A DNA stretch of 64,000 nt, taken from NCBI RefSeq assembly GCF_014303735.1, contig NZ_CP060296.1, positions 1,065,501 through 1,129,500 on the forward strand, written 5' to 3'. This DNA is from Variovorax sp. PAMC28562 (GTDB lineage: Bacteria; Pseudomonadota; Gammaproteobacteria; Burkholderiales; Burkholderiaceae_C). The notes under the pieces are model-generated. The model saw nothing but the letters and a program-made list of their open reading frames with translations, searched no databases and was not told the DNA's origin. The translations under genes were made by a program, and so were the position numbers. Below, in pieces: positions 4,992 to 52,488 of the stretch; position 1 is the first letter of the stretch; the number at the start of each line of letters is the position of its first letter.

Positions 4992-6110
<1,119 letters not shown>

Positions 6111-9901: not shown

Positions 9902-10495
9902 TCAGTCCTTGGTGGACTTGTCCTTTTTGCCGGAGCCCTTCGCCTTCCTGACCTTTTTTTCTGCCTTGACCTTGTCAGCTTTGGCCTTCTTCTTCGCCTT
10001 CTTTTTCTTCTTCTTTTTCTCGTCTTCCTTTGGCGCGAGCAAGGTGCCACGGCACGCCTCGGCACCACACCAGCACGGGAATTCCGCCAGCAACTCGGCC
10101 GTGTACGGCTCGTCGATCATCAGCCCATAGTCGTAGTTGAGCTCTTCGCCCGCCGCGATGTTTTGCAACGCCTTGATGAAAACTCGGCCATCGGTTTCAT
10201 CGGCCTCGCAGTTCGGCGCACACGAGTGGTTGATCCACTTGGATGCGTTGCCGTTGATCTTGCCGTCGATCACATGGCCGTCATCGATATGAAAGTAGAA
10301 CGTGTGCTGCGGCTGGCTGGGGTCGTGAGGGTGGCGCCGGAGCGCTTCTTTCCAGCTGATGACTTCGCCCTTGTATTCGATCAGCGTCTCGCCCTCCGCG
10401 ATGTCCTGCACGGCGAACACGCCGTTGCCATGAATGCCCGAGCGGCGCGTTTGTATGCGGCGGCCAGAGGTTGAAACGGGGGATTTGGTGGGCAT
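9902..10495 (-). CDS. SET-domain protein-lysine methyltransferase-like protein with lysine-rich tail
   Basis: 197 residues if started at ATG 10495 (MPTKSPVSTSGRRIQTR). The SET core is complete: GIHGNGVFAVQDI, the YKGE strand, KWINHSCAPNC (the AdoMet-binding NHSC motif), GEELNYDYG with the catalytic-side tyrosine, and a post-SET zinc motif CWCGAEACRGTLL. The last 44 residues are almost all Lys, Ala, Asp and Glu, including a run of seven lysines, like the tail of histone H1. SET proteins transfer methyl groups from AdoMet to lysine side chains. It heads an operon with birA and is divergent from topB across 82 bp. The substrate is unknown. Confidence 0.9.
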   Translation of the reverse strand: MPTKSPVSTSGRRIQTRRSGIHGNGVFAVQDIAEGETLIEYKGEVISWKEALRRHPHDPSQPQHTFYFHIDDGHVIDGKINGNASKWINHSCAPNCEADETDGRVFIKALQNIAAGEELNYDYGLMIDEPYTAELLAEFPCWCGAEACRGTLLAPKEDEKKKKKKKAKKKAKADKVKAEKKVRKAKGSGKKDKSTKD

Positions 10496-44519: not shown

Positions 44520-44828
44520 ATGATCAACGTCATCGCCATCATCGTCACCAAGCCCGGCCTGCGCGCCCAGGTGCTCGAACTTGCCGCCGCCAACCGACCT
44601 GCCGTGCTGGCCGAGGCCGGCTGCATCGAGTACGCCGCGGCCATCGACGCAGCCGGCTTGCCGACTTCGAAGGCCACCTTCGGACCCGACACCTTCGTGG
44701 TGATCGAGAAGTGGGAGAGCCTGGCCGCATTGCAGGCGCACGCCGTCGCGCCGCACATGGTCGCCTATGGTGCGAAGACCAAGGACATGCTGGCCAGCCG
44801 GATGATCCACGTACTCGATCCGGTTTGA
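44520..44828 (+). CDS. Antibiotic biosynthesis monooxygenase (ABM) domain protein
   Basis: 102 residues starting at ATG 44520 (MINVIAIIVTKPGLRAQVLE). Small ferredoxin-like alpha+beta barrel: INVIAIIVTKPGLRAQVLEL, FVVIEKWESLAALQAHAVAP and the C-terminal DMLASRMIHVLDP. YgiN-type members are quinol monooxygenases or act on small phenolics; others have no known activity. It stands 108 bp before the RcoM gene and is not obviously part of the cox system. Its leader shows no ribosome-binding site stronger than CCTC. Confidence 0.75.
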   Translation: MINVIAIIVTKPGLRAQVLELAAANRPAVLAEAGCIEYAAAIDAAGLPTSKATFGPDTFVVIEKWESLAALQAHAVAPHMVAYGAKTKDMLASRMIHVLDPV

Positions 44829-44936: not shown

Positions 44937-45710
44937 ATGCAAAGCCGCAGCCCCTTGTACCTGCTCGAACGGTTCGATCCGGGCGTGGTACACCTCGATC
45001 GCGAGCTGCGCGTGGTGGCGATGAACAGCCTGGCGCGGCGCCTGCTGCCGGTCGAGGACAAGCAGCCGTTCGAAAAAATGGTGCTGTCGTTTCATCCCGA
45101 GCGCTCGGTCGCCAAGGTCAAGTTTCTGCTCGACCAGGCCGAGTGTCCGGTGAGCAATCCGCCGCCGATGACGATGATCATCAACATCCCCGAGCGGGTG
45201 CTGCTCATCAAGGTCACCAAGCTCGGCGACCTGCGCGGCGACACGGCGGGGTACACGCTGATCTTCTACGACATCACCGAACTGGTCAGTGGCGAGGCGC
45301 CGCCGGTCTCGACCGAACCGACGCTCAAGCCGCCGGCCAAGCGGCAGCTGAACAAGATCCCGACCGTCTCGCAAAACCGCATCGTGCTGGTCGATGTCGA
45401 GACGGTGACGTACATCCGCTCCGAAGGCCACTACACGTGGGTGAGCACCGCGCTGGGCTCCAGCTTCTGCAACCTGAACATCGGCGATCTGGCCGATCGG
45501 CTGGATGGCGCTTCGTTCTTTCGCATCCATCGCAGCTACCTCGCGAACCTCGATTTCGCCGAGCAGATCCTGCGTGACGATGGCAAGGTCAGCCTCAAGC
45601 TGCGCGGTGAAACGACTGCATTGCCGGTGGCGCGCACCAGCGTTGCCAAGCTGCTCGAACAGCTCGGTATCGGCGAAGCCGACGCACTCAAAGCCGACCT
45701 CCGCAACTGA
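44937..45710 (+). CDS. rcoM: RcoM-type carbon monoxide-sensing transcription factor (PAS-LytTR)
   Basis: 257 residues: N-terminal PAS-like haem domain (about 5-115) and C-terminal LytTR DNA-binding domain (about 150-250). In RcoM-1 of Burkholderia xenovorans the haem is held by His74, with Cys94 and Met104 as switching ligands. The same spots are visible here: H53 in VLSFHPERSVAKVKF, C70 and M80 in AECPVSNPPPMTMIINIPER (Cys to Met spacing of ten, as in RcoM-1). LytTR strands: RIVLVDVETVTYIRSEGHYT, then FFRIHRSYLANLDFAEQILR. It precedes coxMSL, the CO dehydrogenase genes, and three regularly spaced repeats lie in between. Confidence 0.9.
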   Translation: MQSRSPLYLLERFDPGVVHLDRELRVVAMNSLARRLLPVEDKQPFEKMVLSFHPERSVAKVKFLLDQAECPVSNPPPMTMIINIPERVLLIKVTKLGDLRGDTAGYTLIFYDITELVSGEAPPVSTEPTLKPPAKRQLNKIPTVSQNRIVLVDVETVTYIRSEGHYTWVSTALGSSFCNLNIGDLADRLDGASFFRIHRSYLANLDFAEQILRDDGKVSLKLRGETTALPVARTSVAKLLEQLGIGEADALKADLRN

Positions 45711-45741
45711 TTCGGGATAACCCGAAGCGGAGCTTCGGCAC

Positions 45742-45796
45742 CCGCCGTTCATGCGCGCAGCGCCGCACTTCGTGCATGCGCAGCCGTCGTTCGTGC
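45742..45796 (+). promoter_or_regulatory. Triplet 21-bp-spaced direct repeats: predicted RcoM operator
   Basis: Three copies of a 13-bp unit, CCGCCGTTCATGC (45742-45754), CCGCACTTCGTGC (45763-45775) and CCGTCGTTCGTGC (45784-45796), start exactly 21 bp apart. Consensus CCGYMSTTCRTGC. RcoM-1 is reported to bind triplets of direct repeats spaced 21 bp on centre. Position between rcoM and coxM fits activation of the cox operon. Confidence 0.75.
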
Positions 45797-45864
45797 GTCG
45801 GATTCGTCCGGCGCAGGCAGCGCGTCTTACCGTCTCCCGGCACCCACGACTGGAGACAAAAAAG

Positions 45865-46728
45865 ATGATCCCTTCCGGATTCGACTATCACGCGCCGCGC
45901 ACCGTAGCCGACGCCATTGCGCTGCTAGGGCAGTACGGCGGCGACGCCAAACTGCTGGCCGGCGGCCACAGCCTGCTGCCGATGATGAAGCTGCGCTTCG
46001 CACAACCGGCGCACCTCATCGACCTCAACCGGATCGAGTCGATGCGCGGCATTCGTGAAGAGGGCGGCACGATCGTGATCGGTGCGATGACAGTCGAGCG
46101 CGACCTCATCTACTCGACCTTGCTGCAGCAAAAAGTGCCGCTGCTGCCGATGGCTGCACAGCACATCGCCGACCCGCAGGTGCGCAACCGCGGCACCATC
46201 GGCGGCGACATCGCGCACGGCGATCCGGGCAACGACCACCCTGCCCTGTCGATCGCACTCGATGCGGTGTTCGTGCTCGAAGGGCCGAACGGCACCCGAC
46301 AAGTGAAGGCCGATGGCTTCTTCCAGGGCACCTACATGACCGACATGGCCGAAGACGAAGTGATGGTCGCGATCCGCGTGCCCGCCTTTGCGCCCGGCAC
46401 CGGCTACGCCTACGAAAAGCTCAAACGCAAGACCGGCGACTGGGCCACCGCCGCCGCCGCGGTCGTGCTGCGCATGGACGGCGGCAACGTGAGCCACATT
46501 CGCATCGCGCTGACCAATCTGGCGCCGACCGCCTTGCGTGCGACAGATGCCGAAGCAGCGCTGCTCGGCAAGCCGCTGACCGACGCGGCCATTGCCGATG
46601 CAGGTGCCCGTGCCATGGCCATCTGCGATCCCGCGGAGGACCTTCGCGGCAACGTCGAATACAAGACCGCGATGGCCGGGCAGATGGTCCAGCGCGCCCT
46701 GCGCCTGGCGCTGGCCCGCTGCAAATAG
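45865..46728 (+). CDS. coxM: Carbon monoxide dehydrogenase, medium (FAD) subunit
   Basis: 287 residues from ATG 45865; the longer open frame upstream runs through the regulatory repeats and is not used. CoxM carries the FAD: the N-terminal loop [20 protein letters not shown] and the second FAD motif [20 protein letters not shown] are clear. It passes electrons from the molybdenum centre, through CoxS iron-sulfur clusters, to quinones. In the Oligotropha carboxidovorans enzyme CoxM has 288 residues. Order coxM-coxS-coxL matches the standard CO dehydrogenase operon; coxS starts 26 bp after its stop. Confidence 0.95.
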
Positions 46729-46754: not shown

Positions 46755-47242
46755 ATGGGCAAGCAAATCATCAACGTCAGCGTGAACGGCAAACGGCTTG
46801 AAAAAGCGGTCGAGCCGCGCACGCTGCTCATTCACTTCCTGCGCGAAGAGTGCCATCTGACAGGCGCCCATATCGGCTGCGAAACCAGCCACTGCGGCGC
46901 TTGCACGGTCGACCTGGATGGCGAGTCGGTCAAGAGTTGCACGCACCTGGCCGTCCAGTGCGACGGCTCCGAGGTACTGACCGTCGAGGGGCTCGCCAAA
47001 GGTCCGCTGCTGCACGCCGTGCAGGAGGGCTTCTACAAGGAGCATGGCCTGCAATGCGGCTTCTGCACGCCCGGCATGCTGATGCGTTCCTACCGCTTCC
47101 TGCAGGAGAACCCGAACCCGAGCGAAGACGAAGTACGTGCCGGCATCGGCGGCAACCTGTGCCGCTGCACCGGCTACCAGAACATCGTGAAGGCCGTGTT
47201 GTACGCGGCGGCCAAGCTGCAACAAACCGAAAGGGCGGCCGC

Positions 47243-47246
<4 letters not shown>
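46755..47246 (+). CDS. coxS: Carbon monoxide dehydrogenase, small [2Fe-2S] subunit
   Basis: 163 residues. It has both [2Fe-2S] clusters: the plant-type ferredoxin motif [20 protein letters not shown] near residues 42-60 and the C-terminal four-helix cluster with [20 protein letters not shown] (near 100-120) and [20 protein letters not shown]. They carry electrons from the Mo-Cu centre of CoxL to the FAD of CoxM. The Oligotropha protein has 166 residues. Stop overlaps the start of coxL as ATGA, so the two are translationally coupled. Confidence 0.95.
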
Positions 47247-49657
<2,411 letters not shown>

Positions 49658-49684: not shown

Positions 49685-50356
49685 ATGGAAGTCAAACTCG
49701 ACAAACGTTACCCGCTCGACGTCGATAGCGCGCGTGCCTGGAAGATCCTCAGCGACGTGCCGGCCACCGCGGGCTGTATGCCCGGTGCGGCCATCACCGA
49801 CAAGCTCGACGATACGCACTACAAGGGCAGCGTGAAGGTGAAGGTCGGGCCGGCCGCCGCGGCCTTCGCGGGTGATATCGAGGTGCTGGCACTCGACGCA
49901 TCGGCGATGACCTTGCAGCTGCTCGGAAAGGGCGCCGACCGTGGCGGTTCGTCCGCGTCGATGAACCTCACGGCGACCATCGAGCCCGGCGACACGCCCG
50001 CGACATCGGTGCTGGTGGGCCATGCCGAAGTGATCGTCAACGGCAAGTTCGCGCAGTTCGGCGGGCGTCTGATGGTGCAGGTGTCGGACATGCTGCTAGG
50101 GCAGTTCGTCGACAACTTTCGGGTAGCGGCGGCGGCGCTGCCCATGCAGGGTGTTGCGACAGCGGCAGAAGCAGCAACAGAGCCAGCGCAGACGGCAGCG
50201 ACGACAGCCGTGGCCCCCGCAATTTCACCCACTCCGACCGCCACACCCTTCGTCCCTGCAGCGCCCGCCAAGGCCAACGAGATCAATGCGCTGGCGATCT
50301 TCTGGCATCTGGTCAAGGGCTGGTTCTCAGGCCTGTTCGGCGGCAAGCGCGCTTGA
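49685..50356 (+). CDS. coxG: CoxG, SRPBCC-fold membrane anchor/maturation protein
   Basis: 223 residues, starting 27 bp after coxL. Residues 1-150 form the CoxG SRPBCC fold (LDVDSARAWKILSDVPATAG, SADRGGSS-like turn, GHAEVIVNGKFAQFGGRLMV). A proline/alanine/threonine-rich linker (about 160-205) leads to an amphipathic or membrane-associated C-terminal helix (ALAIFWHLVKGWFSGLFG). In Oligotropha CoxG recruits CO dehydrogenase to the cytoplasmic membrane. Here it precedes coxD, a different order from the Oligotropha cluster, where coxG follows coxF. Confidence 0.9.
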   Translation: MEVKLDKRYPLDVDSARAWKILSDVPATAGCMPGAAITDKLDDTHYKGSVKVKVGPAAAAFAGDIEVLALDASAMTLQLLGKGADRGGSSASMNLTATIEPGDTPATSVLVGHAEVIVNGKFAQFGGRLMVQVSDMLLGQFVDNFRVAAAALPMQGVATAAEAATEPAQTAATTAVAPAISPTPTATPFVPAAPAKANEINALAIFWHLVKGWFSGLFGGKRA

Positions 50357-50360
50357 GCTT

Positions 50361-51314
50361 ATGACCAGCGAAGCCGAACTGCGAGAGTCGCTCTACCGCG
50401 CCGGCTACATCGCCGACGAAGGCTTGGTAACGACGCTGTGGCTGGCCGGCGAGTTACAGCGACCCCTGCTCGTCGAGGGCGATGCCGGTGTCGGAAAAAC
50501 CGCGCTGGCCAGCGCGTTGGCGAAGGCGCGCGGACACGCACTGGTGCGGCTGCAATGCCATGAAGGACTCGACCTCTCGCAGGCTGCGTACGAGTGGAAT
50601 TACGGCCGCCAGCTGATGGCGATCCGGTTGAGCGAGTCACATCCGGCGGGCGCGCAAGGCTTGAAAGAAGCCGATCTTTTCGCACGCGACTACCTGCTGG
50701 AGCGCCCCTTGCTCCAGGCCATTTCCAGCGAGCAGCCATGCGTGCTGTTGATCGACGAGATCGATCGCGCCGATGAAGCCTTCGAGGCCTTCTTGCTCGA
50801 GGTACTGGCCGACTACCAGATCACCGTGCCCGAGCTCGGCACGCTGCATGCCAAACACATTCCGCAGGTGGTGTTGACCAGCAACGGCACGCGCGAGTTG
50901 TCCGATGCGTTGCGGCGCCGCTGCCTGTATCACTACCTCGACTACCCGACGCTGGCGCGCGAAATCGCCATCGTGCGTGCGACCTTGCCGCAGGCCGAAG
51001 GCGCGCTGATCGAACAGGCCGTGGCCTTCGTGCAGCGCCTGCGCCGCGAAGACCTGGGCAAGACGCCGGGTGTCGCCGAAACGCTCGACTGGGTGCGGGC
51101 GCTGCACCGGCTGTCGTTCAAGGCTTTGCCCGACGATCCGCACGCGCTCACCGGGACGTTGGCGTGTCTCATCAAGACACGCGAAGACCGCTTCCAGATG
51201 GGCGAGGACCGTGTGCGGCAACTCATAGAAGGACGACGCACGGTGGGCGTGGCCGAGAAGGCGCCACAGCCGACGGCCGATGTCGCCTCTTCTTCGACGC
51301 CGACATCGGCTTGA
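50361..51314 (+). CDS. coxD: CoxD, AAA+ (MoxR-type) ATPase for CO dehydrogenase active-site maturation
   Basis: 317 residues from ATG 50361, four bases after the coxG stop. AAA+ motifs: Walker A LLVEGDAGVGKTALASAL (about 38-50), Walker B EQPCVLLIDEIDRADEAFEA, sensor 1 QVVLTSNGTRELSDALRRRC. CoxD acts as an unfoldase-like chaperone that helps to sulfurate and insert copper into the active site of CoxL. The family is MoxR. The C-terminal 40 residues are a Lys/Ala/Ser linker without function assigned. coxE starts 7 bp after the stop. Confidence 0.93.
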   Translation: MTSEAELRESLYRAGYIADEGLVTTLWLAGELQRPLLVEGDAGVGKTALASALAKARGHALVRLQCHEGLDLSQAAYEWNYGRQLMAIRLSESHPAGAQGLKEADLFARDYLLERPLLQAISSEQPCVLLIDEIDRADEAFEAFLLEVLADYQITVPELGTLHAKHIPQVVLTSNGTRELSDALRRRCLYHYLDYPTLAREIAIVRATLPQAEGALIEQAVAFVQRLRREDLGKTPGVAETLDWVRALHRLSFKALPDDPHALTGTLACLIKTREDRFQMGEDRVRQLIEGRRTVGVAEKAPQPTADVASSSTPTSA

Positions 51315-51321
51315 CCTTCGC

Positions 51322-52488
51322 ATGACCACGCTCGCGCGCCCCCTCGAAAGCATCGCCGGCTTTGCGGCCCTGCTGCGCGACCACGGCATGAAAGTCGGCA
51401 TTGGCGAGCAGCAGGCTTTCGTACAGGCGGCGTTGCGACTGCCGGTCGAGCGCGCAGCCAGGCTCGATCCGGCATGGCGTGCCATCGCCTGTCACGACGC
51501 GCGCGACTGGAAGTGCTGGCCCGAGCTGTTCGAAAGCTACTGGTATCCACAACGTGTCAAAGGGCGCGCCAAGGTCGGCGGGCAAACGCGGCCGAGCCGC
51601 AATCTGCAGCAAGCGGTGCAGAGCCTGCACGACAGCATGGACGGCGGCGTGCCTTCGTCGCGCCCCCGCAGCGCAGACACCGCGCTCGATGCGCCGCCGG
51701 CCATCGACGATGACGGCGCGTTGCAACGTGCTCAGGGCGGCGCGACGCGCACCGACGCACTGCACGACCGCAGTCTGTCGCAGTGGCTGCCGCAAGACCT
51801 TGCGCTGCTGCAGTGCCTTGCCGAGCAGATCGCGCGACGGCTTCGCAAGCGCCTGACGCGCCGCTGGCACGACGACACGCACGGCCGCCGGCTCGACATG
51901 CGCCGCACCTTGCGTGCGAGCTTGCGCACCGGCGGCTTGCCGGTGCACCCGGTCTGGCGTGCGCCGCGCCGCGAATGGCCGCGCCTCTTCATCCTGGTCG
52001 ACGTCAGCCGTTCGATGGAAACGCACGCGCAACTCTTTCTGCGCATCGCACGTGCCTTCGTCTCGACCCTGAACGCCCGCGTATTCGTGTTCCACACACG
52101 CCTTGCGGAGGTGACGCCGCTGTTGCGCAGCGACTCGGCCGCAGTACAGGAAAAGGTCAACGCCGTCACCGCAGGTTTCGGCGGCGGCACGCGTATCGCG
52201 ACCAGCATCTCCGACTTCCACGCGGTGCATGCACGCGCGCAACTCACGCGCAACGCGCGGGTGTGGGTGCTGTCGGATGGCTTCGATGCCGATGCGCCCG
52301 AGCGGCTGGCCCAGGAGTTGGCACGAGTGCGCGCACGTGGCGCGCGAGTGCACTGGTTTCATCCGTCGGAGGCACTCCCCGCCTCGGCGGCGATGCAGCC
52401 CGTCGTCGCACAACACGGTTTGGTCGAGGGCTTTTCACGGCTCAACAGCCTGCGTGATCTGGCAGACCTTTCCAGCCATCTGCGCTGA
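51322..52488 (+). CDS. coxE: CoxE, VWA-domain protein
   Basis: 388 residues from ATG 51322. VWA domain in the second half, with an intact MIDAS sequence LVDVSRSMETHAQL (Asp-x-Ser-x-Ser), the GGGTRIATSIS threonine stretch and LSDGFDADAPERL acid. The N-terminal half is the CoxE type, rich in Arg (RRLRKRLTRRWHDDT). Partner of CoxD: MoxR ATPases commonly work with VWA proteins, which may present the substrate. CoxE and CoxF are needed for copper insertion in Oligotropha. coxF begins 31 bp later. Confidence 0.92.
   Translation: MTTLARPLESIAGFAALLRDHGMKVGIGEQQAFVQAALRLPVERAARLDPAWRAIACHDARDWKCWPELFESYWYPQRVKGRAKVGGQTRPSRNLQQAVQSLHDSMDGGVPSSRPRSADTALDAPPAIDDDGALQRAQGGATRTDALHDRSLSQWLPQDLALLQCLAEQIARRLRKRLTRRWHDDTHGRRLDMRRTLRASLRTGGLPVHPVWRAPRREWPRLFILVDVSRSMETHAQLFLRIARAFVSTLNARVFVFHTRLAEVTPLLRSDSAAVQEKVNAVTAGFGGGTRIATSISDFHAVHARAQLTRNARVWVLSDGFDADAPERLAQELARVRARGARVHWFHPSEALPASAAMQPVVAQHGLVEGFSRLNSLRDLADLSSHLR

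Follow-up and report, generated by a model that had tools for sequence, protein, structure and literature searches.

Which regulator would switch on the aerobic CO dehydrogenase genes of Variovorax sp. PAMC28562, and through which DNA element? The question is raised by a stretch of 64,000 nucleotides of contig NZ_CP060296.1 (hereafter the window), in which three direct repeats lie between the regulatory gene rcoM and coxM. Our answer, drawn from the sequence and its comparison with relatives and held with a probability of roughly 0.93, is that CO-activated RcoM would bind a triplet at 45748–45796, upstream of a promoter that lacks a recognisable -35 element, and would activate coxMSL.

rcoM and its cox neighbours

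The rcoM gene (44937–45710, plus strand) encodes a PAS/LytTR regulator of 257 amino acids with Pfam matches to LytTR (64.5 bits) and PAS_4 (28.2 bits), both above cut-off, while a search of the product for MHYT, the domain of CoxC-type regulators, gave no match at 1e-3. A protein search returned 1081 relatives, and among the 120 matches listed at least 11 carry the name CO-responsive transcriptional regulator RcoM in their source; a PDB sequence search for a solved structure gave no match at 1e-3. Of 116 aligned rows, in which some records are present twice, 115 retain His53, 115 Cys70 and 112 Met80; we take these residues to be the counterparts of His74, Cys94 and Met104 of RcoM-1, respectively. 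The linked gene thus encodes an RcoM relative with a putative heme PAS domain and a LytTR domain. Directly upstream of it, at 44520–44828, lies a gene for a small ABM-domain protein.

On the same strand follow coxM (45865–46728; FAD subunit of aerobic CO dehydrogenase with FAD_binding_5 and CO_deh_flav_C), coxS (46755–47246; 2Fe-2S subunit), coxL (47243–49657; large subunit, TIGR02416 at 1530.6 bits against a cut-off of 991.15), coxG (49685–50356) and a gene for a coxE-like VWA protein (51280–52488). Around residue 385 the coxL product has the active-site motif SYRCSFR instead of the AYRCSFR usual in relatives (53 AYRCSFR versus 3 SYRCSFR among 56 motif hits in the best 80 of 183 loci).

The triplet and its fit to published operators

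Between the rcoM stop at 45710 and the coxM ATG at 45865, an intergenic region of 154 bp harbours the 13-mers CCGCCGTTCATGC, CCGCACTTCGTGC and CCGTCGTTCGTGC, which begin at 45742, 45763 and 45784, exactly where the first-pass annotation had placed them and in exact 21-bp steps. Their shared core is TTCRTGC on the plus strand: TTCATGC at 45748–45754 in site I (13-mer 45742–45754; core score 7/7), TTCGTGC at 45769–45775 in site II (13-mer 45763–45775), where a GC at 45765–45766 precedes the core, and TTCGTGC at 45790–45796 in the promoter-proximal site III (13-mer 45784–45796). Position 8 is G, A and G at sites I, II and III, respectively. Site II is the best-conserved repeat, and the spacer sequences differ from one repeat to the next.

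The operator bound by RcoM-1 in Paraburkholderia xenovorans LB400 (Kerby and Roberts 2012; Dent 2022, both via PMC11347149) is described in PMC11347149 as three TTCNNGCA repeats with gaps of 12–13 bp, i.e., 20–21 bp centre to centre. Unrelated published repeats would have counted against the first-pass reading, but this is not the case: the 8-mers TTCATGCG, TTCGTGCA and TTCGTGCG agree with this motif at 7/8, 8/8 and 7/8 positions, TTCNNGC is present in all three, and both gaps are 13 bp, inside the published range. Compared with LB400 by that motif description, the two systems share three TTCNNGC(A) direct repeats, an RcoM gene and the involvement of cox genes; they differ at the eighth base, which is A in the published motif but G in the first and third repeats here. 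The likeness extends to canonical LytTR sites, given in the same source as paired 9-bp direct repeats 10–13 bp apart, in that direct repeats about two helical turns apart go with a LytTR domain, but there are three repeats here and two there.

The first-pass annotation had read the triplet as an RcoM operator, and the published motif (as far as described in PMC11347149), the neighbouring RcoM relative and the comparative data all argue for that reading. Its details fared unevenly. The 21-bp spacing is exact in the window, yet the motif as described in that source and the relatives use 20 bp as well. Within its consensus, the core TTCRTGC(R) is kept, whereas the two leading C are not conserved; the preceding bases, written CCGYMS, hold at two positions only, the G and the one after it, and this at site II alone (G in 79/79 and C in 78/79 operators).

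Chance and rarity

Could the repeats be a functionless chance or codon-periodic pattern, or a tandem minisatellite? As a TTCRTGC triplet at 20–21 bp the 154-bp region scores 21/21; after dinucleotide shuffling it never did so in 20,000 trials (best shuffle 17). In a motif-free test on three equally spaced 13-mers at spacings of 13–40, 9 of 13 columns are identical, and 2 of 5,000 shuffles were as good. Tandem-like arrays do account for exact triplets in 2 of the 5 exact-triplet genomes (G045 and G179) among 299 family genomes, but the intergenic place, the differing spacers, the shuffles and the conservation of the cores far above the spacers in relatives speak against such an origin, which we regard as negligibly probable.

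Within the 64-kb window the rcoM-coxM triplet is the sole zero-mismatch match to three TTCNNGC at 21 bp. Allowing up to three mismatches yields 24 matches against 4.56 expected, an excess that probably reflects codon periodicity, 21 being a multiple of 3; this raw count was therefore not used as evidence. The genome-wide search that the first-pass annotation had proposed (4.69 Mb, 21-bp steps) found no second site with fewer than two mismatches. On both strands, six places have at most three mismatches versus two for a reversed-pattern control, and the five besides the operator carry two or three mismatches. These were set aside as further targets. Four of them (L082, L131, L133 and L134) lie inside long open frames, which is weak evidence in GC-rich DNA, and the fifth (L132) overlaps L131. 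Looser TTCNNGC triplets add a single place, again L082, in a permease-like frame, and exact doublets a single one, L090, in a long open frame.

The repeats might also be coding, as an open reading frame from 45751 crosses them into coxM and would give CoxM an N-terminal extension. We rejected this because the steps in relatives measure either 20 or 21 bp, so that the frame is not kept; a start at 45751 is also disfavoured by a GGAGA-like stretch before the later coxM ATG in the relatives displayed. In the window, the corresponding probable ribosome-binding site is GGAGAC at 45852–45857 (plus strand).

Conservation in related rcoM loci

For comparison we used the best 80 of 183 rcoM loci, 77 of which have coxM at most 3 kb downstream. 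A motif-only search with steps of 19–22 permitted placed the best triplet at 20–21 in 76 of these 77 loci, and all three cores were exact in 16/77. Two of the 80 loci, L020 and L077, were left unscored since the sequence compared does not reach a coxM; L020 has three cores after rcoM at 20 and 21 bp, and no exact doublet was found in the 342 bp after rcoM in L077. Apparently the same two records, as L099 and L108, were left out of the family set for the same reason, L077 apparently corresponding to L108.

The 77 loci, together with L003 and the window, gave 79 operators, which were scored with steps of 20–21 only and with the register of site III picked jointly with the -10 box, a choice that favours the fit of site and box alike in operators with a degenerate site III. 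In this set, drawn from the best 80 of 183 relatives, site I scores at least 6/7 in 77/79 and site II in all 79. At site II, G occupies position -4 in every operator and C position -3 in all but one. Site III starts with TTC in 23 (the window included), with TTG in 55 (44 of them TTGATT) and with CTG in one. Many of the 79 are near-duplicates, L001 being almost identical to the window (98% RcoM identity); after dereplication at 75% identity, sites I and II both score at least 6/7 in 33 of 33 groups.

In the 140 bp that precede coxM, a score of at least 18 is reached by 58 of 78 loci (from the best 80 of 183), versus a fraction of 0.0003 of 3,900 shuffles, and exact-core pairs at most 60 bp apart upstream of coxM show spacings of 20, 21, 40 and 42 bp only. 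The 744,816 bases of rcoM loci contain 84 exact doublets at most 200 bp upstream of coxM and three elsewhere, two of which follow rcoM on a contig that stops short of coxM. These counts bear on the question of whether another LytTR regulator, rather than RcoM, binds the repeats: the genome holds three LytTR matches, RcoM being one of them, but the site adjoins rcoM, recurs in the rcoM-coxM loci of the family, and exact doublets are almost all upstream of coxM (84/87 in the best 80 of 183 loci). Binding by one of the other LytTR proteins is, on this evidence, highly improbable.

A search of the best 80 of 183 loci for exact doublets upstream of rcoM, as a mark of autoregulation, found none but an inverted one on the minus strand just upstream of rcoM (L039:4912). 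It is the only exact doublet off an operator-like place in these loci and could possibly reflect autoregulation or a divergent target.

When rcoM is displaced, the array is found by coxM. In L003, rcoM stops at 5777 and the array starts only at 10233, after some 4.5 kb of other DNA that contains open frames; from there it is 119 bp to coxM (10352), and the array shows 21/21 spacing and is followed by a -10-like box. rcoM and the array are parted by an open frame of 261 codons in L002 and of 123 codons in L004, and by several hundred bases in L030 and L074, with the array again next to coxM in all four. From these five loci we conclude that the array goes with coxM.

Fourth repeats are rare: a score of at least 6/7 one step upstream of site I occurs in 4/79 operators, three of them from Polaromonas, a count that contradicts a fourth repeat as a general feature, and 0/79 reach this score at six other pairs of distances. 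In the Polaromonas loci L061, L064 and L070 the extra core is exact and lies 20–21 bp upstream of site I, which makes four repeats.

Promoter and proposed mechanism

A putative -10-like box, TACCGT, lies at 45828–45833 (plus strand), 38 bp start-to-start after site III. Its position is conserved in relatives, and the triplet is placed relative to it as an operator upstream of a cox -35 would be. In 77/79 operators (best 80 of 183), site III is followed by TAnnnT at a start-to-start distance of 37–38 bp, a count somewhat favoured by the joint choice of register, against a mean of 1.7 and a maximum of 6 in 200 rounds of mononucleotide shuffling. Where exact cores fix the register (the window and the 13 of L001–L018 with three exact cores), TAnnnT stands at 37–38 in 14/14. 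The TACCGT of the window is poorer than the TAAGTT of its nearest relative. TTGACA sought at the -35 place of the operators gave poor matches only (1–4 of 6), and no consensus sigma-70 promoter was found. A -10-like box without a recognisable -35 would give this promoter the look of an activator-dependent one.

Taken together, the proposed mechanism would run as follows. CO would occupy the heme of RcoM, as in RcoM-1 and RcoM-2, and the LytTR domains would cooperatively fill the three direct repeats, which face the same side of the DNA at intervals of two helical turns. Site III would then lie about 44–50 bp upstream of a predicted start at about 45840, just outside the empty -35 place, and from this position bound RcoM would bring RNA polymerase to the -10-only promoter and switch on coxMSL together with the genes that follow. 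What the sequences show are the repeats, their agreement with the published motif, their conservation, their constant placing relative to coxM and the -10-like box, and their rarity in the genome; from these we infer that RcoM binds cooperatively and in response to CO, that it activates, and where transcription starts. RcoM is reported to be homodimeric (PMC9670170), so that an operator of three repeats raises a question of stoichiometry.

The opposite sign of regulation has a precedent. In Afipia carboxidovorans, CoxC, also of LytTR type, represses PcoxB through three TTNNNGCN repeats according to PMC11347149, and the RcoM-bound triplet might likewise be a repressor site, relieved by CO. The two operators indeed share three LytTR repeats and the control of cox genes, with intervals of 18–21 bp for CoxC. 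Nevertheless, we consider repression very unlikely: CoxC is described there as a membrane MHYT repressor with an operator overlapping the -35, whereas the protein here has PAS_4 and LytTR and its repeats lie further upstream. A 17-bp spacer would put the start of a -35 23 bp before the -10-like box, and the site III core starts 38 bp before that box, hence about 15 bp upstream of the -35 start and not overlapping it. Moreover, there is no usable -35 to block, the -10 itself being a prediction, and the same source describes RcoM1 as binding upstream of the -35 and activating.

A terminator was also sought, and none was found. At 45711–45738, directly after the rcoM stop, two perfect inverted repeats, TTCGGG/CCCGAA and CCGAAGC/GCTTCGG, overlap and are mutually exclusive. 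Their stems span 45711–45726, which is part of the predicted fold, and 45722–45738; both are without a T run. This fold shows modest stability (z -1.89; 7 of 200 shuffles equally good), and the second inverted repeat is absent from L001 and L002 by eye.

A possible operator grammar

The triplet is very probably a further example of a known switch, to which our analysis adds a grammar derived from 79 loci, with the precise bases that a mutant should change. It is conceivable, though we would rather doubt it, that RcoM operators share a fixed grammar, locked to the promoter, which gives each of the three repeats a task of its own. Site II (GCnnTTCGTGC) would serve as an almost invariant anchor and site I as another strong site; site III would be tuned and specific to the clade, kept 37–38 bp from the -10 where a -35 would otherwise stand. 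With RcoM reported to be homodimeric (PMC9670170), a triplet graded in this way, and the four repeats of some Polaromonas, would place cooperativity, and so the CO threshold, in the operator itself. For work on CO sensing in a Variovorax-like lineage, the locus offers an operator known to the base, bases open to mutation and a prediction of the start site, while the 79 natural operators form a resource for testing how a dimeric RcoM reads three repeats. In addition, the TTCRTGC(R) triplet is usable as a motif to annotate CO-regulated cox operons.

Wider distribution

RcoM matches at 1e-30 occur in 36/399 family genomes, the window's own counted, and in 2/275 class-level genomes, one of them again the window's own. 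None of four other sampled genomes of the same genus has a match at this threshold; this patchy presence in the genus possibly results from horizontal transfer or loss. Exact triplets are found in 5/299 family genomes, lying between rcoM and coxM in G000, G100 and G296 and forming short tandem arrays elsewhere in G045 and G179. The full test with TAnnnT at 37–38 is passed by 10/28 family and class loci, some of which duplicate the first set, and the -10 distance is looser in these loci than in the 79-operator set.

The family and class genomes also gave 17 distant loci with coxM downstream and less than 57% RcoM identity. Within 170 bp, 14/17 score at least 16 (shuffles 0.005) and 10/17 at least 18, versus 0/3,400 shuffles. 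The other three (L114, L115 and L120) reach only 12–14 within 170 bp; at 200 bp, each has two strong cores further upstream (7,7,5; 7,6,7; 7,6,4).
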